Assembly: GCA_938018055.1 (NCBI GenBank)
Contig: CALIKL010000004.1
Coordinates: 1-36,064, forward strand
Length of the DNA: 36,064 nucleotides
Direction: 5' to 3'
Origin: an uncultured bacterium
GTDB taxonomy: Bacteria; Bacteroidota; Rhodothermia; Rhodothermales; UBA10348
The notes beneath the pieces are model-generated. The model was not told the origin of the DNA and searched no databases. It saw nothing but the letters and a program-made list of their open reading frames with translations. Numbering within the stretch: position 1 is the stretch's first letter; the number at the start of each line of letters is the position of its first letter. Below, one piece after another: positions 5,973 to 18,773 of this stretch. Made by a program: the position numbers and the translations under genes.

Positions 5973-6785
5973 CTAGATGAGGATGAGCCCCAAAATCCCG
6001 ATTGCAAAGCAGTAAACGGCAAACAGATGAAACTGCCCCCGCTTTACGAACGTGAGCACAATCCGGATTGCTACAATACCAGAGAGAAAAGCTGCCACAA
6101 CGCCTGGCAGCATGGTGCCCCAAGCGGCACCGTCCATAGCGGTGCCTATATCTCCAAGTTTCAGAAGGGTCGCTCCAATCACTACCGGCAGTAACATCAG
6201 GAAGGAAAAGTCCGCCGCTTCTTCAGGGTTGATCTTTTGATACATGGCCGTGCAAATGGTCGCCCCCGAACGCGAGATGCCAGGAATCATGGCAGCTGCT
6301 TGCGCCAGGCCTATCAGCAAACTGTTCAGTGGCCCCACAGATCGGGTACCCTTATTACTCCACATCGTGAGAAGGAGAAGCGTACCCGTTACCAACAGCA
6401 TACCGGCGGCAAGACGCGGAGACGTGAATGCCGCTTCGAGTCGGTCGCCAGCAAACATATATACGAGGCCCGTCGGGATCATGGTGAGGAGCACGTGCAT
6501 GCCCAAGCGGAAGTTTGCTTGATTACGATAGCCGTCTACCCACTGATTTGGCCTCACAATTCCCTTCACGACGTCGAGGATCAGCGTCCCAAGTCGGGCC
6601 CGATAGACGTACGCAATGCTCATTACGGTACCAAAATGAACCAGCACCTCGAAAAGGACCCCATTGCCGCCCGGCTCAAGGCCCAGGACATACTGTCCCA
6701 GGACGAGATGCCCGCTCGAAGAGATCGGCAGGAACTCTGTCAGTCCTTGAATAAGGCCCAGAATGACTGATTCCCACCACGTCAT
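5973..6785 (-). CDS. uppP: Undecaprenyl-diphosphatase (UppP/BacA)
   Basis: UppP dephosphorylates undecaprenyl pyrophosphate at the membrane, recycling the lipid carrier for peptidoglycan and other surface polymers; overproduction gives bacitracin resistance in known cases. The 270-residue protein is almost entirely hydrophobic with about eight membrane segments. Both family signatures are present: the acidic/serine motif EFLPISSSGHLVLG (17-30) and PGISRSGAT (168-176), which carry the catalytic Glu, Ser and Arg. The ATG at 6785 begins directly with the conserved first helix (WWESVILGLIQGLTEF). It is followed by the response-regulator gene on the same strand after 225 bases, and preceded by rqcH after 74 bases. 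Confidence 0.97.
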   Translation of the reverse strand: MTWWESVILGLIQGLTEFLPISSSGHLVLGQYVLGLEPGGNGVLFEVLVHFGTVMSIAYVYRARLGTLILDVVKGIVRPNQWVDGYRNQANFRLGMHVLLTMIPTGLVYMFAGDRLEAAFTSPRLAAGMLLVTGTLLLLTMWSNKGTRSVGPLNSLLIGLAQAAAMIPGISRSGATICTAMYQKINPEEAADFSFLMLLPVVIGATLLKLGDIGTAMDGAAWGTMLPGVVAAFLSGIVAIRIVLTFVKRGQFHLFAVYCFAIGILGLILI

Positions 6786-6859
6786 GGGGATCCAGAAAGA
6801 AGAATTGAAAGTGTGATTTGCGCCCTATAATACAATTCGATTCCCAACCGAACTGTTCT

Positions 6860-8452
6860 TCAGTCAGGTAAGCGGGGCTCAACAAGAAGAACTTCCTCTC
6901 GATCTACACGAACAGATCCAGCCACCGACTTCCTCGGCTTTCTAACGTACTTGCGTTGCGTTACGATCACAGGCGCCAGAGACGACGTTCGGGCTTTGGA
7001 AAACCAGGCTGCAATCGAGGCTGCCTGCTCAATGATCTGTTTCGGGGGAGAATCTGTCCGACCTTTTACGCGAAGCACCGTGTGCGATCCTGCGACTCCC
7101 CGTGCATGGAGCCACACGTCGAAAGGACGCGCGTCCCGAAGAGTCAATTCATCATTCTGGCGGGCATTACGACCTACCCATACCTCGTATCCGTTCGACA
7201 ATTCGAATCGCCGATACGGAATGGTGTCCTGATCTGATGCTGTTTGCTGCAGCGTGGCCAGCAACGCTGCATGTTTGTTCTTGAACGTCTTCACCTCGGC
7301 CACATGAGAGAGGCTTTTAACTTCCTCCAATACCTCGGTCAGCTTCTGGACTTGTCGAGTCAAGCCGCCAAGACGCTCCATGGCTACTTCCCGAGCTGCG
7401 CGCGAAGACTTCGCTTTTTCGTACATCCGTTGCGCATTTTCAACCGGAGTCAATTCCGGATTCAAGCGAATGGTCATCATGGACCCGTCTCCCAGCAAGT
7501 CGGGAAGCTGGGTCACTTCTGCTCCATCTTCAACCAAGTGAAGCTGCGCCATCATCAGATGACCCAAATGCTCATAGTGCTCACTGCGCTCGGGTCGGGA
7601 CAATTCTTTTTCGACTCGTGACAAGGATCGATCGGCAGCAAGATGACGTTTCCGAATGGCCTGCAGGAGAGGCTTGTAGGCTCCTTCAAATCGGTTTTGC
7701 GCCAGTCGGCGGCGTGCACAAATGCGCACGGCAGTGTCTACGGTGTCAAACAACTCAGCCTCCGATCCCAGATGATGGAGCGGCACTAGAGAAAGTGTGG
7801 GGCTCCCGTCTTCATCTTGGTAGATGCGAGCAGTTGGGCTTTCCAACTCTCCCATCAGGGCAGTGGCAGCTTCGACGAGAAGCTTCGGGTCTTCCAACCC
7901 ATCTACACGATGCAGCAGCTCATCACGAAGAGGTCCGGAAAAAAGAGGCCAAAGGCGTCCAACCTCACGCCCTCCCTTCAAAAGCGTACGCACGTCCTCT
8001 ACCGACTGGGGCATGGTGGCTGGCTGCGCTTCGGGAGCGGGCTGTGAACTGTCTCCCTTGAACGTATCCATCACGGACCCATTCTCATCTACGAGAAAAG
8101 CATTGGCCTTGCCGCCAAACGGTATCATCAGCAGACGCACGCCTTGATCAAATTCCCAGGTTATCAGTCGGTCTCCCTCAGCGATTTGGATGCCTACAAG
8201 ATGACGACTGCGCAGACGAGGAAAGTGGTCCACCACGTTTCGACGCGAGCGGTTGGATCCGTCATACCGAAACAGATGTCGATCCGGGGATTGGACTGAT
8301 AGATTGATGGAGTGGAGGTCTTCTGTTGCGGTTGCAAAAACCAATACCAGACTCCCTTTATGCTGGGAATAGGCATCCAAGAGCTGCGAGCCGGCAAGTA
8401 TCGGCTCCCATTCTCTGACCAGTGCACGCAGCGTGAAGTAGTTCGTCAGCAC
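6860..8452 (-). CDS. rqcH: RqcH/NFACT-family ribosome-associated quality-control protein
   Basis: RqcH-type proteins bind stalled 50S-peptidyl-tRNA complexes and recruit Ala-tRNA to add C-terminal alanine tails. The 530-residue product has NFACT-N (about 1-180), a helix-hairpin-helix and coiled-coil middle (about 250-400, with a long KSSRAAREVAMERLGG-type helical stretch), and NFACT-R (about 415-515; GYEVWVGRNARQNDELTLR, then DVWLHARGVAGSHTVLR). An Asp-Arg pair in EGDRLITWEF (D94-R95) lines up, from memory, with the Asp-Arg pair needed for tRNA recruitment in the Bacillus protein, so it is probably functional. The start appears to be GTG; an upstream ATG is out of frame and soon stops. It was formerly annotated as a fibronectin-binding protein, which is misleading. 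The 33-base gap to the next gene suggests an operon. Confidence 0.9.
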   Translation of the reverse strand: MLTNYFTLRALVREWEPILAGSQLLDAYSQHKGSLVLVFATATEDLHSINLSVQSPDRHLFRYDGSNRSRRNVVDHFPRLRSRHLVGIQIAEGDRLITWEFDQGVRLLMIPFGGKANAFLVDENGSVMDTFKGDSSQPAPEAQPATMPQSVEDVRTLLKGGREVGRLWPLFSGPLRDELLHRVDGLEDPKLLVEAATALMGELESPTARIYQDEDGSPTLSLVPLHHLGSEAELFDTVDTAVRICARRRLAQNRFEGAYKPLLQAIRKRHLAADRSLSRVEKELSRPERSEHYEHLGHLMMAQLHLVEDGAEVTQLPDLLGDGSMMTIRLNPELTPVENAQRMYEKAKSSRAAREVAMERLGGLTRQVQKLTEVLEEVKSLSHVAEVKTFKNKHAALLATLQQTASDQDTIPYRRFELSNGYEVWVGRNARQNDELTLRDARPFDVWLHARGVAGSHTVLRVKGRTDSPPKQIIEQAASIAAWFSKARTSSLAPVIVTQRKYVRKPRKSVAGSVRVDREEVLLVEPRLPD

Positions 8453-14090: not shown

Positions 14091-14195
14091 ATGCCAAAGC
14101 CGTATACTGCGCATATTCCTTCTGACTCGTTGGGCAGGCGTGACCCCATTCGACCAGCGCCGCTGCCCGAAGCCCCGTACCACCCGGACGCATGA
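14091..14195 (+). CDS. Possible 34-codon linker ORF between folP and cdaA
   Basis: One base after the folP stop TAG an ATG opens a 34-codon frame whose TGA overlaps the cdaA start as ATGA (14192-14195). The predicted peptide is proline-rich (RRDPIRPAPLPEAPYHPDA) with no known motif. It exactly fills the 102-base gap between the two genes, so it could couple their translation by termination and reinitiation even if the peptide has no function. There is no Shine-Dalgarno sequence, and chance is a real alternative. Confidence 0.35.
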   Translation: MPKPYTAHIPSDSLGRRDPIRPAPLPEAPYHPDA

Positions 14196-14992
14196 CGCTC
14201 ATTCCGTGGGTCATACCGATTCGTGTCGTCGATCTCCTTGAGGTCGGCTTGGTGGCTTACATCCTGTACAAGCTGTACCAGCTGATGCGGGGAACGATCG
14301 CGGTCCAGATTTTCGTTGGCATCCTGGCGCTGTATCTGATCCAATTGATGGTGACGGCCGCCGACATGACCATCTTGCGGGCTCTTTTCGGATCCATATC
14401 GGAAGTATTCGTATTGGCCGTGATCATCCTGTTCCAGCCCGAAATCCGACGCCTACTTCTGCTACTCGGACAAAATCCTCTTGTGCGACGATTCATGCAA
14501 TCTCCCGCACAGCAGGAGCGCATCGAGGAAATCGTACATGCCATCGAAGATCTGAGTCAGCGACGCATCGGGGCTTTGCTCGTATTTGAACGGTCCACCG
14601 GTCTGCGCAGTTATATCGAAACAGGGGCTCAATTGCACGCACAGGTCAGTCGCGATCTCCTGGTAACGATTTTCTATTCCCAGAATCCACTTCATGACGG
14701 AGCTGTCATTGTGCGCGATGGCCGGATTGAAGCAGCACGCTGTATCCTGCCCATTTCCACCAATATGAAGCTGGACAGCAAGCTGGGACTGCGTCACCGG
14801 GCTGCTGTCGGACTGACCGAGGTTTCGGATGCATTTGTCGTTGTCGTATCGGAGGAAACAGGGTATATCAGCACCGCCAGCAATGGTGAACTCAAGCGAA
14901 ATGTGAGCCTCGACTTGTTGGACAACTATATCGTCGAGGCGCTTGCCCCCAGCTTTGAGCCAGAGGCAGAAACCGTTCCCGCAACAGCCTGA
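14192..14992 (+). CDS. cdaA: Diadenylate cyclase CdaA (c-di-AMP synthase)
   Basis: CdaA joins two ATP into cyclic di-AMP, which in studied bacteria controls potassium and osmolyte transport and wall homeostasis. The 266-residue product has three hydrophobic N-terminal segments (about 12-30, 35-55 and 66-83) and a DAC domain at about 105-225, with the catalytic DGA (169-171) and RHR (201-203) motifs intact. The coupling FQPEIRRLL motif (81-89) that precedes the cyclase domain is present. The ATG overlaps the stop of the small linker ORF, and pcm starts 4 bases after its stop. No CdaR or GlmM gene is adjacent, unlike in Firmicutes; the operon partner is folP. Confidence 0.95.
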   Translation: MTLIPWVIPIRVVDLLEVGLVAYILYKLYQLMRGTIAVQIFVGILALYLIQLMVTAADMTILRALFGSISEVFVLAVIILFQPEIRRLLLLLGQNPLVRRFMQSPAQQERIEEIVHAIEDLSQRRIGALLVFERSTGLRSYIETGAQLHAQVSRDLLVTIFYSQNPLHDGAVIVRDGRIEAARCILPISTNMKLDSKLGLRHRAAVGLTEVSDAFVVVVSEETGYISTASNGELKRNVSLDLLDNYIVEALAPSFEPEAETVPATA

Positions 14993-14996
14993 ACCC

Positions 14997-15656
14997 ATGA
15001 AGGAAGACTGGAAATTCCAGCGTCGTCGTGCTCGCTTGGTAGATGAGCTTCGGGAAAAGGGAATAAGCAGTGAACGCGTCCTCAAGGCCATCGGGACCGT
15101 CCAGCGACAGCACTTCGTAGACCCCGCTTTCCTTTCACGCGCCTACCATGACGAGGCGCTGCCCATTGGATTGAAGCAAACGATATCCCAACCGTTTACC
15201 GTAGCCTACCAGAGCCAGACGCTCAATCCGAAGTCCGGTGAACGTATCCTGGAAATCGGAACGGGTAGCGGTTACCAGGCAGCGGTTCTGTGCGAGATGG
15301 GTGCCCGGGTCTATTCAATAGAACGCGTGCGTGGCCTCTATGACCATACCGCTCCCTTACTTCGAAGCCTCGGATACCGGGCAAATTGCCGGTTCGGGGA
15401 CGGGATGGCCGGATGGGAATCCATGGCGCCATTCGATGGCATAATCGTCACGGCAGGTGCATTGGATGTTCCGGATTCTCTGCTGAAGCAGCTCAAGATG
15501 CCGGAAGGCATGAAATCGGGCGGCCGCATGGTCATTCCGGTTGGTGGACGTGACCAGCAGATGATGACGTATATCGTCCGAATGGGCGAAGATGAATTCG
15601 ACCGTATCGAAATGGAAGCCTTTCGATTCGTACCCCTCTTGGGAAATACCGACTGA
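14997..15656 (+). CDS. pcm: Protein-L-isoaspartate O-methyltransferase
   Basis: Pcm methylates isoaspartyl residues of aged proteins using SAM, starting their repair. The 219-residue product shows the family-specific segment TISQPFTVAYQSQTL (about 62-76), SAM-binding motif I ILEIGTGSGYQAAVL (about 84-98), YSIERV, and the GGRMVIPVGG loop (about 178-187). The reading frame is open 54 bases further upstream, inside cdaA, but the ATG at 14997, 4 bases after the cdaA stop, gives the normal length. The gene ends only 4 bases from the convergent EutN-family gene, so transcripts from both sides must overlap unless they end inside coding sequence. Confidence 0.94.
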   Translation: MKEDWKFQRRRARLVDELREKGISSERVLKAIGTVQRQHFVDPAFLSRAYHDEALPIGLKQTISQPFTVAYQSQTLNPKSGERILEIGTGSGYQAAVLCEMGARVYSIERVRGLYDHTAPLLRSLGYRANCRFGDGMAGWESMAPFDGIIVTAGALDVPDSLLKQLKMPEGMKSGGRMVIPVGGRDQQMMTYIVRMGEDEFDRIEMEAFRFVPLLGNTD

Positions 15657-15660
15657 GTCC

Positions 15661-15960
15661 TCAGTCACTTTCCGGACGGGGTGTCCAGCTTCCTGATACG
15701 TGATCTACCCGATCGATAACGCCTACGATGGTCGCATCGGTCGGGGTGGGTTGTGGCTTGAACGGGATCGTGGCTTCCGTGGAAGAGACGTACATCACCG
15801 TATCACCAACGCCGGCATCTACTGTATCCAGGGCCACAATACGCCCGCCCACCGTCGCACCACTGAACGCTTGAGGTTGTACAAACAGGAGTCGCTGCCC
15901 TTCCAAACTATCGTCTTTGCGCGTGGCCCAGACCTTACCGGTGACTTTGCCGAGATTCAT
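15661..15960 (-). CDS. EutN/CcmL family shell-vertex protein, divergent paralogue
   Basis: EutN/CcmL (BMC-P) proteins form pentamers that cap the vertices of bacterial microcompartments. The 99-residue product starts with the family signature (LGKVTGKVWATRKDDSLEGQRLLFV) and keeps the core VDAGVGDTVMYVSS (about 47-60). The normally conserved GSSAR turn is replaced by SSTEAT, and an insert rich in proline precedes the last strand (ATIVGVIDRVD). AGGTGA five bases before the ATG is a fair ribosome-binding site. It lies 12 bases after its better-conserved paralogue and is last in a deoB-headed group. No BMC-H shell gene is in the window, so a full compartment is not shown. Confidence 0.9.
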   Translation of the reverse strand: MNLGKVTGKVWATRKDDSLEGQRLLFVQPQAFSGATVGGRIVALDTVDAGVGDTVMYVSSTEATIPFKPQPTPTDATIVGVIDRVDHVSGSWTPRPESD

Positions 15961-15972
15961 CAGATCACCTGC

Positions 15973-16239
15973 TCAGACTGTGTCGAGCTTATCCACGATA
16001 GCCGTAATCACGGCATCAATGGGCTTGTTGCGAGTCAACTCGGTCTGACGCGCACTCGATCCTTGGGCAAACAAGACCGTCTCACCGACCCCGGCGCCAA
16101 CGCTGTCGACACAGACAACTACCCGGCTCTTGTCACTACCGTCCTCAGCGATTTCACGAACCAACTGCAGTTTCATACCCTTCAGTTGTTCGTCTTTTCG
16201 GGTTGCCCAGACCGTACCGATTACTTTTCCGAGAATCAT
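15973..16239 (-). CDS. EutN/CcmL family shell-vertex protein
   Basis: The 88-residue product is a canonical-length BMC-P protein: ILGKVIGTVWATRKDEQLKG at the start, VDSVGAGVGETVLFAQGSSARQT in the middle (about 44-66) and AVITAIVDKLD as the last strand. The pore-side VGAGVGE loop and the GSSAR turn are intact, in contrast to the downstream copy. It starts 11 bases after deoB and ends 12 bases before the second copy, so the three genes almost certainly share a transcript. The two paralogues share the opening K-V-x-x-V-W-A-T-R-K-D, which points to a duplication followed by divergence. Whether it forms a shell vertex or works alone as a pentamer is unknown. Confidence 0.93.
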   Translation of the reverse strand: MILGKVIGTVWATRKDEQLKGMKLQLVREIAEDGSDKSRVVVCVDSVGAGVGETVLFAQGSSARQTELTRNKPIDAVITAIVDKLDTV

Positions 16240-16250
16240 GGCGAGAGCTG

Positions 16251-17411
16251 TCAGGATGATTCGAAGGATAGGCCTCCGAAGGACTCGTCGAGTCCGAAAT
16301 AAGTGGCGACGGTTGCTGCGTGATCCACAAAGGAAACACGCGTTCCCACATCTGTGGGAGTCCGATCGGTATAATACAAAAGGGGCACGTATTCCCGGGT
16401 GTGGTCGGTCCCTGGGTACGCAGGATCGTTGCCGTGATCTGCTGTAATCAGTAGGCGCCCATGTTCAGGCAATGCCTCAAGGATCGCTGGCAGCGCTCGG
16501 TCAAACGCCTCAAGGGCATCCGAAAAACCCTGAGGATTGTTGCGATGCCCGTACTCCTGATCGAAGTCAATCAAATTGGTCCAAATGAAGGTATTGCCTT
16601 CTGCCTGCCGCATTTCTTGAAGGGTCACCTCCACGCCATGCGCATTCCCTGCCGTCTTGATCGTACGGTCAAATCCAACGCCCCCGAACAGATCAGCCAC
16701 TTTGCCAACCGAAATGGTCGTCACACCACGCCGTTGTAGTCGTTGCTGCAAAGGCTCCTTTTGAGGCAACCGCGAGAAATCCTTCCGTTTGCTGGAAATG
16801 CGGGACCACGCACCCTTGGACCCCTCAAAAGGCCGTGCTATCACGCGTCCAACCGCATGAGGGCCGACACACACCCTGTTACGGGCAATCTCACACCATC
16901 GGTACTGCTCCTCCAGCGGGATGACATCCACATGGGCAGCAATCTGAAAAACACTGTCCGCAGACGTGTAAACAATAGGTAGTCCTGTATCTGCGTGCTG
17001 CTGACCGAATTCTTCAATGATGACGGTACCTGATTCTGGTCGATTGCCAAGCACTGCAGTCACTCCCGCCTCCTTGCAGAACAGGTCTATCATGTCCTTA
17101 GGAAAGCCATCTGGATACGTTGGAAACGGCGCGTCGAGGGTCAATCCCGCCAGCTCCCAATGACCCGTCGTGGAATCTTTTCCTGCCGAACGTTCCTGCA
17201 TCTTTCCCCAGGAAGCAGCTGGTCGATCGGCACCGGGTACACCGGGTAAAGGACGAATCCGCCCCAGTCCTGCAGCGCCGAGATGGGGTAGTTTCGGTTC
17301 ACACGCAGCCAATACATGTCCCAGGGTATCCGCCCCTTCATCGCCATAGATGGCTGCGTCCGGCTGCCAGCCTATACCCACGCCGTCAAGCACGATGGTT
17401 ACAAAAACCAT
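16251..17411 (-). CDS. deoB: Phosphopentomutase
   Basis: DeoB interconverts (deoxy)ribose 1-phosphate and 5-phosphate in nucleoside salvage and breakdown. The 386-residue, alkaline-phosphatase-fold product shows the N-terminal metal site VLDGVGIG (8-15), ADTLGHV (27-33), the phosphorylatable Ser/Thr cluster in GKDSTTGHWELAG (77-89), TNLIDFDQEYGHRNN and the C-terminal metal site TADHGNDPAYPGTDHTREYVPLL, split near residues 325-347. The ATG is preceded by a strong AAAGGAGG with a 5-base spacer. It lies 21 bases after the gene at 17433 and 11 bases before the two EutN-family genes. No DeoC, DeoA or nucleoside phosphorylase is in the window. Confidence 0.96.
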   Translation of the reverse strand: MVFVTIVLDGVGIGWQPDAAIYGDEGADTLGHVLAACEPKLPHLGAAGLGRIRPLPGVPGADRPAASWGKMQERSAGKDSTTGHWELAGLTLDAPFPTYPDGFPKDMIDLFCKEAGVTAVLGNRPESGTVIIEEFGQQHADTGLPIVYTSADSVFQIAAHVDVIPLEEQYRWCEIARNRVCVGPHAVGRVIARPFEGSKGAWSRISSKRKDFSRLPQKEPLQQRLQRRGVTTISVGKVADLFGGVGFDRTIKTAGNAHGVEVTLQEMRQAEGNTFIWTNLIDFDQEYGHRNNPQGFSDALEAFDRALPAILEALPEHGRLLITADHGNDPAYPGTDHTREYVPLLYYTDRTPTDVGTRVSFVDHAATVATYFGLDESFGGLSFESS

Positions 17412-17432: not shown

Positions 17433-18773
17433 TTATCCCACGATGACGCATTCACCGGACTGGAAAGACTCCTGAAGGGCGGCTGTCGCTTCCGATCGCA
17501 GGGAATCAGCTCCATCATGTCGGTCCAGCAGTGGCGCTACACCTACACTTACACCCCCTTCAAAATCCTGAGCATCTTCCGGGAAGGCCTCCTTGATTCC
17601 TGATGCCCATTCGGGCAACGAATCATGGTTTCCATGATAGAAGATCCCATAAGTCAACTCCCCGAAACGCTCAACCCGAGCATCCAGCGCGACCGAACGA
17701 AGGCGCGTCGAGAACCGCTCATCCAGATCTTCCAGATCAGCCGAACCATCGCCCGACAAGGCTTCTCCTCGATTCAAGTAAACCAACGCCAAGGAGAGCG
17801 GATGGGACAAGGAACGAGCCTGTTCCATCTCGTCGATAATGATTTCGCGTCGCGGTCGAAGTGCATCGGATGGCTCTTCGGAGTCCGACTCGATGTAAAT
17901 CGTATCCAAGATGGTGGTGACCAGGCGAGCGTATTGTTCCAACAGCACCCGTACAGAGGCGGCCTCGAGTCCATCCTCATTCACCGTATCTACAACGAGC
18001 ATGAAGAGCTCATCGTAGCGCTTCGGGACAACCGGGACAATGGCTACCTGACGCACATTGATTGGCTCGTGATAGTAGCCAAGCTTGGCTTTGGGAAAGC
18101 CATTGGGGCCAACGCGTGGATACACTACCGGAACGAGCGCTTTATGCCCGGAGAGCATGGGTTCTTTCGCCGAATACGACCCCCCATTTCGAGCATAGGA
18201 ATTCTGACTTACCATCACCTCCACCTGGTAGCGCAGAGGTGCGTCCTCCTGCCTGAGGAGACAGACCGTGTAGGCGTCCAACGAAGCACGTAACGATCGC
18301 AGGCACGGAATGAGCACATCGGCCTTGATCTCGGAGGCAGCCTCCGAGACCATGATGCGAGCTCGCGGGGGCCGTTGACGTGCCTTCGATACGCCAGCAA
18401 CATGAGACTGAGCTGGAGTGGGAGACACGGACCGGTCTGGAGCGGGAGCAGCTTCTGGCACCGACTCCCCGTCCTCTTCGGTCAGCGTCACCGTCTCTTC
18501 AGGAACATCGCCGTTGGAAGGATCGACTTCGCTGTCATCGCCTTTGGGCTTGATGTCCAGGATACCGAGAGAGGCGAGGTCTTCCGTGGGCTGTTCAGGA
18601 GCCTGCATGAACGTCTCGGGAACGTCCTTGTGGCGGCGCCTCATGTTCATCGTCACCAAGAGTCCTGCGCTGATGAGCAGGACCAATGCCAGGAGATAGA
18701 GCATCGGCTGACCCAACACGATCGCCAGTGCAATCGATACCACGGCAAGGATGATGAAAAGTACGCGCAGCAT
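17433..18773 (-). CDS. Membrane-anchored protein with GAF-like and degenerate GGDEF-like regions
   Basis: The 446-residue product has two N-terminal membrane helices (about 2-20 and 24-42), then a cytoplasmic acidic, proline-rich linker to about 145. Residues 150-290 look like a GAF-type sensory domain (EIKADVLIPCLRSLRASLDAYT opening; QVAIVPVVPKRYDELFMLVVDT strand pair). Residues 300-446 follow the order of a GGDEF domain (DEMEQARSLSHPLSLALVYLNRGE, then VSVGVAPL and ADSLRSEATAALQES), but the signature site reads RFGELTYGIF, so the catalytic GGDEF is missing and no cyclase activity is expected. It may sense or bind a ligand. It precedes deoB by 21 bases and heads the deoB-eutN group. The assignment is by pattern only. 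Confidence 0.7.
   Translation of the reverse strand: MLRVLFIILAVVSIALAIVLGQPMLYLLALVLLISAGLLVTMNMRRRHKDVPETFMQAPEQPTEDLASLGILDIKPKGDDSEVDPSNGDVPEETVTLTEEDGESVPEAAPAPDRSVSPTPAQSHVAGVSKARQRPPRARIMVSEAASEIKADVLIPCLRSLRASLDAYTVCLLRQEDAPLRYQVEVMVSQNSYARNGGSYSAKEPMLSGHKALVPVVYPRVGPNGFPKAKLGYYHEPINVRQVAIVPVVPKRYDELFMLVVDTVNEDGLEAASVRVLLEQYARLVTTILDTIYIESDSEEPSDALRPRREIIIDEMEQARSLSHPLSLALVYLNRGEALSGDGSADLEDLDERFSTRLRSVALDARVERFGELTYGIFYHGNHDSLPEWASGIKEAFPEDAQDFEGGVSVGVAPLLDRHDGADSLRSEATAALQESFQSGECVIVG

Follow-up and report, generated by a model that had tools for sequence, protein, structure and literature searches.

The stretch of DNA analysed here, called the window below, is 36,064 nucleotides long and corresponds to contig C4 of a 93-contig draft genome (2.42 Mb, 85% complete) of an uncultured member of the Rhodothermales. 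We investigated a locus in which deoB, encoding a phosphopentomutase, is followed by two genes for bacterial microcompartment (BMC) vertex proteins, BMC-P1 and BMC-P2 (P1 and P2). An earlier note, made from the sequence alone, had described this succession, the genes being 11 and 12 bases apart, and its description proved exact. All three genes lie on the minus strand, with deoB as the first of three closely packed genes:

16251..17411, minus strand: deoB, phosphopentomutase (deoxyribose-1-phosphate to deoxyribose-5-phosphate), 386 aa, family TIGR01696
15973..16239, minus strand: BMC-P1, canonical EutN/CcmL shell vertex pentamer protein, 88 aa, family PF03319, GSSARQT present
15661..15960, minus strand: BMC-P2, divergent shell vertex paralogue, 99 aa, family PF03319, SSTEAxIPFKP replacing GSSARQT

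Both BMC-P genes are intact and matched Pfam family PF03319 (106.9 bits for P1 and 94.2 bits for P2; cut-off, 25), and DeoB matched the NCBIfam model TIGR01696 with 389.4 bits (cut-off, 341.2). No targeting extension was seen at the N or C terminus of DeoB. The distinction between one canonical and one divergent vertex protein, also drawn in the earlier note, was confirmed. P1 keeps SVGAGVGE (including VGAGVGE) and GSSARQT; P2 has DAGVGD, carries SSTEATIPFKP in place of GSSAR, and contains a Pro/Thr-rich stretch. Alignment of P1 gave 37 invariant columns among 27 homologues. Since P2 is conserved across 27 loci, with 18 invariant columns, it is a paralogue under constraint, conserved throughout the Rhodothermales, and not a decaying copy. 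The best solved relative of P2 is a Haliangium shell pentamer (5v74), and for a single-chain model of P2 (predicted local distance difference test score [pLDDT], 77; loop 64-69 uncertain) the top Foldseek matches were all BMC-P pentamer proteins. P1 and P2 stood in tandem in every Rhodothermales P1-P2 locus that was read, and this, together with the conservation of P2, places the arrangement beyond chance.

Shell genes were also found outside the window. The same genome carries two genes for shell hexamer proteins (BMC-H1 and BMC-H2, or H1 and H2; PF00936) in tandem on contig C47 and a third BMC-P gene (P3) on C20, all scoring above cut-off, so that its shell genes total two BMC-H and three BMC-P (PF03319). 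The pentamer-only module considered in the earlier note thus proved wrong. We surveyed 114 Rhodothermales genomes, 52 with BMC-P and 62 without; named relatives are metagenome-assembled genomes of this order, phylum Rhodothermota. BMC-H was present in 49 of the 52 BMC-P-bearing genomes and in none of the other 62, and a BMC-bearing genome nearly always had three BMC-P and two BMC-H copies. The BMC-P-bearing genomes that lacked BMC-H were two drafts (G027 and G104, 72 and 89% complete) and G013, in which P1-P2 is visibly broken (remnants at L375 2307-2688). BMC-T was not found, as each genome has only two PF00936 domains, each in a separate single-domain BMC-H gene. Chance neighbourhood of deoB and the two BMC-P genes, or a pentamer working without any compartment as the earlier note had allowed, would fit the window itself, where BMC-H, AldDH (acetylating aldehyde dehydrogenase) and DeoC were not seen, and would also fit the 18 genomes that have deoB without BMC-P. 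We nevertheless regard this explanation as scarcely credible, since it is already contradicted by the two BMC-H genes of the same genome and by the restriction of BMC-H to BMC-P genomes.

The shell genes occupy three unlinked, fixed sites (on C4, C20 and C47 in this genome), which are conserved across the order. The gene order is unknown gene-deoB-P1-P2, then PCMT-CdaA-FolP, at site 1; FbaB-AAA-P3-amidohydrolases at site 2; and H1-H2-YbbR at site 3. The genes on either side of the trio at site 1 are as follows:

17433..18773, minus strand: conserved gene with an N-terminal membrane segment, immediately upstream of deoB, chromosomal backbone
14943..15656, plus strand: protein-L-isoaspartate O-methyltransferase-like gene (PCMT), named from sequence with no profile scan

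Pfam and NCBIfam scans gave no match for the gene at 17433..18773, which also adjoins deoB in BMC-less genomes. PCMT converges with P2, from which it is separated by 4 bases, and marks the border of the shell-pair site. Two of the three shell sites were found empty in BMC-less genomes, and the P3 neighbours AAA, FbaB and the amidohydrolases remain where P3 is absent (L142, L146 and L147). This joint retention or loss of all three sites is the chief argument for a single shell built from the five proteins. Two neighbours of P3 were considered as functional partners and rejected: the AAA ATPase, as a shell partner, matched in all 114 genomes with or without BMC, and the class I fructose-bisphosphate aldolase (FbaB-like), as cargo, belongs to the backbone and is present at the empty site of the same three loci. 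The AAA ATPase (about 655 aa; L007 9114-11081, C20), whose N-terminal half has no family assignment, is often found beside this aldolase.

The acylating aldehyde dehydrogenase and deoC genes that the earlier note had proposed to look for, along with BMC-H, were also found, on C23 and C37, respectively, apart from the shell genes. With Escherichia coli EutE as bait, a strong match (1e-34 or better) was obtained in 14/14 BMC genomes and 0/11 BMC-less genomes. With the AldDH of this genome as bait, an orthologue of at least 61% identity was present in 48 of 52 BMC genomes and absent from all 62 BMC-less genomes. The best family was TIGR02518, acetylating acetaldehyde dehydrogenase (547 bits, compared to an equivalog cut-off of 620), and the best solved relative was 5j78. 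The protein ends in a Pro/Ser-rich linker followed by a conserved helix-like segment, LSxxxIDxLxxRFRK, and we infer that this C-terminal tail works as an encapsulation peptide.

Further features of AldDH were noted. Ahead of the C-terminal tail, and with a linker on either side, is a second conserved helix-like segment, SWMDEIEARLRxRAGN (L203 / L373 ~6367-8028, C23), which could be a further motif for targeting or assembly. In most Rhodothermales, the AldDH gene is directly upstream of efp-accB-accC-gcvH-guaA-like genes (L373 8150-12578; L263-L299), and this maker of acetyl coenzyme A (acetyl-CoA) thus adjoins genes for two subunits of acetyl-CoA carboxylase. BMC-less G020 (family f5) has an AldDH homologue at 38% identity (L378 2967-4262), which may be a remnant or an acylating enzyme of another kind.

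The presence of DeoC alone was rejected as a BMC marker, since DeoC occurs in nearly all genomes; only an extension of the protein discriminates. DeoC of BMC genomes has an N-terminal extension of about 55-90 residues before a normal core, and the catalytic core is kept (TIGR00126, 270 bits). The extension opens with a short conserved stretch, which a variable linker connects to an AGAcR module; this opening stretch follows the encapsulation-peptide-like consensus M-x-x-x-E-[KR]-x-x-[IL]-[VI]-x-R-L. It was matched in 49 of 52 BMC genomes compared to 2 of 62 others. The two BMC-less genomes with extended DeoC, G012 and G014, both belong to family f3, and DeoC of G014 is frame-broken (L376). Together with the broken P1-P2 of G013, this suggests that the shell or organelle is being lost in family f3. 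By inspection, no further nucleoside or BMC genes were seen in the DeoC and AldDH neighbourhoods in the Rhodothermales. By sequence and profile, the five shell proteins, the C-tailed acetylating AldDH and the N-tailed DeoC thus occur as one set; most exceptions can be traced to incomplete drafts, to a fragment at a contig end (G018) or to decayed P1-P2 (G013). The suggestion of a deoxyribose compartment with hexamers and aldolase elsewhere, one of those made in the earlier note, is therefore supported, as BMC-H is present and extended DeoC and AldDH track the shell almost perfectly.

The survey of deoB-EutN adjacency in the Rhodothermales, likewise proposed in the earlier note, showed it to be conserved: in each of the 40 genomes that have both genes on one contig, deoB precedes P1 on the same strand, with a gap of at most 150 bp in 25, at most 1.6 kb in 33 and at most 6.7 kb in all 40. 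A purpose-built deoB-P1-P2 operon, in which DeoB itself would be a compartment enzyme, could account for this constancy, for the gaps of 11 and 12 bases and for the higher frequency of DeoB in BMC genomes (45/52 versus 18/62); yet in BMC-less L131 and L135, deoB lies next to PCMT (58 and 41 bases apart) with no shell genes between them. Conversely, P1-P2 are kept without deoB in two BMC-bearing genomes: in G018 they are flanked by PCMT and the next backbone gene, and in G019 they adjoin that backbone gene. Moreover, DeoB has no terminal extension, and P3 and the BMC-H pair are likewise set among backbone genes (AAA, FbaB and YbbR). We therefore judge such an operon very improbable. Since deoB occurs at the site without shell genes and the shell pair without deoB, the adjacency mostly reflects inherited, shared gene order; it may allow coexpression, and DeoB is probably a cytosolic enzyme. 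As an argument for the compartment, the adjacency is weak: it does not prove a deoxyribose compartment, because deoB also stands at this site in some genomes without BMC and two BMC genomes lack deoB.

Outside the Rhodothermales, the closest AldDH relatives are found in Acidobacteriota and Planctomycetota (43-52% identity). BMC-H lay within 0.5 kb of AldDH in 41 of 42 such loci, and BMC-P was also present in 6 of them within the stretch fetched. The best-matching DeoC of most of these genomes has a long extension too, which in many cases begins like an encapsulation peptide (TEAELEQLVAQIAEEILSR, for example); no extension is present in 15 further DeoC paralogues of such genomes. In many extended DeoC proteins of these two phyla (L343-L363), a cysteine-rich motif such as CPDCxxxCxxxC lies between tail and core, a possible metal or Fe-S site that is absent in the Rhodothermales.

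The relationship of the AldDH to these homologues also bears on whether the compartment handles a different aldehyde. In a dispersed metabolosome resembling the FRAG or ACI BMC types, the aldehyde could come from an enzyme outside those searched, e.g., a class II (PF00596) aldolase, as is used by the ACI type (PMC8217296), and the DeoC extension could serve, e.g., oligomerization; the lack of a significant hydrophobic moment in this extension (see below) would agree with such a role. However, the extension tracks the shell, extended DeoC accompanies the same AldDH in three phyla while paralogues in the same genomes lack the extension, and the AldDH matches acetylating acetaldehyde dehydrogenases. 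We thus consider a source other than DeoC unlikely.

We consider it quite likely, on comparison of genomes, that P1 and P2 are two of the three vertex proteins of a real metabolosome with DeoC and AldDH as cargo and acetaldehyde converted to acetyl-CoA, its genes being distributed over five or more chromosomal locations (P1-P2 behind deoB on C4, P3 on C20, BMC-H1 and BMC-H2 on C47, DeoC on C37 and AldDH on C23). Such an organelle would most likely trap toxic acetaldehyde from the breakdown of the DNA sugar. From the gene content, co-occurrence, family assignments and tails that were observed, we infer encapsulation, substrate and flux as follows. DeoB, in the cytosol, would convert deoxyribose-1-phosphate from deoxynucleosides to deoxyribose-5-phosphate. 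H1 and H2 as facets and P1, P2 and P3 as vertices would build the shell, into which DeoC and AldDH would be brought by their tails acting as encapsulation peptides. Inside it, DeoC would release acetaldehyde, which would be held there, and AldDH would convert it to acetyl-CoA.

Several observations weigh against this metabolosome. The hydrophobic moment was no better than that of shuffled sequences for either the DeoC extension (p = 0.44) or the AldDH tail (p = 0.15); because of this, the case for encapsulation peptides is built on their position, linker, conservation and co-occurrence. The AldDH score lies below the equivalog cut-off of its family, and the PduL phosphotransacylase (PF06130) was found in 0 of 44 genomes. 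BMC-bearing G018 and G019 have no DeoB, so that deoxyribose-5-phosphate must have another source there. Finally, the profile counts come from related genomes, so that Fisher values based on them are not independent evidence, with only families f3 and f5 holding both states.

Among known systems, FRAG BMCs have scattered shell genes and a BMC-P triplet, with no function assigned (Sutter 2021, PMC8217296). The Rhodothermales system resembles them in having shell genes in several unlinked places, a BMC-P triplet, a shell mostly remote from cargo enzymes and an AldDh-type metabolosome; it differs in that DeoC and a C-tailed acetylating AldDH were identified as candidate unlinked cargo. The main text of PMC8217296 does not name Rhodothermota, and the likeness is one of layout. 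The sugar phosphate utilization (SPU) BMC, for which a role in DNA degradation was proposed (Axen 2014, PMC4207490; Sutter 2021, PMC8217296), shares DeoC (pfam01791) and AldDh as cargo and a route from deoxyribose-5-phosphate to acetyl-CoA, here with tailed proteins from unlinked genes and predicted encapsulation. In SPU, however, DeoC, RpiB (pfam02502) and the shell genes form one locus, often with PduL, whereas here the genes are dispersed and PduL is absent. PduL is a core enzyme of the full metabolosome model and does not occur in all types, metabolosomes with an incomplete core being listed by Axen 2014 (PMC4207490). The BMC of Haliangium ochraceum (HO) also has a BMC-P triplet and includes the best solved relative of P2, and some HO genomes encode a remote DeoC-type aldolase with an encapsulation-peptide-like N-terminal extension (PMC8217296); HO differs in having BMC-T proteins, compared to only two single-domain BMC-H genes here. 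Type I BMC aldehyde dehydrogenases (EUT2-like, IPR013357; the type I AldDh of Sutter 2021) likewise belong to the acetylating acetaldehyde dehydrogenase family and have a C-terminal tail, which is an encapsulation peptide in type I; in contrast, ethanolamine genes were not seen beside the AldDH here, and the proposed aldehyde source is DeoC. By analogy, the Rhodothermales system would work like SPU and perhaps HO compartments and be laid out like FRAG; it does not belong to SPU, since DeoC and shell genes are not in one locus, or to HO, since BMC-T is absent.

Within the literature collection that was searched, no paper describing microcompartments in Rhodothermales or Rhodothermota was found. 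BMC functions are usually read from gene clusters, and FRAG was left without a function because its genes are scattered. Presence and absence of unlinked genes over 114 genomes pointed to cargo that gene neighborhood could not, and to a definite, testable substrate. More tentatively, and with somewhat less than even confidence, we propose that the dispersed FRAG-like BMCs found in Rhodothermota, Acidobacteriota and Planctomycetota represent a single type of organelle, which handles deoxyribose-5-phosphate in the salvage or scavenging of DNA. In the Rhodothermales, its parts would be two hexamers, three pentamers, and DeoC and acetaldehyde dehydrogenase with their tails, and no operon would unite their genes. 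DNA-sugar catabolism may be one reason for several phyla to have retained an organelle of this kind.

The shell protein BMC-H2 (L006 5072-5524, C47) carries a linker and then a C-terminal domain, conserved in 16 of 16 Rhodothermales loci read. This domain weakly matches Rho_N (11 of 16 members; best E value, 0.00034) and SAP, and it was modelled as helices (pLDDT of about 89) after a low-confidence linker; the NCBIfam EutK model also matches H2. Such a Rho_N/SAP-like tail is unusual for a shell hexamer; one possible function would be to connect the shell with nucleic acid or with cargo.

Other genes near the shell sites were also observed. Between P3 and the AAA gene, the opposite strand encodes a Phd/YefM-like antitoxin (L007 8724-8996, C20); its gene is conserved in many genomes, some of them P3-less, and no adjacent toxin was noticed. 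A YbbR (CdaR-like) protein is encoded 15 bases after BMC-H2 (L006 5540-6553), and a CdaA-like diadenylate cyclase lies near the BMC-P pair (window 14192-14992), so that the two members of the commonly joined cyclic di-AMP pair are found at the borders of two different shell sites.
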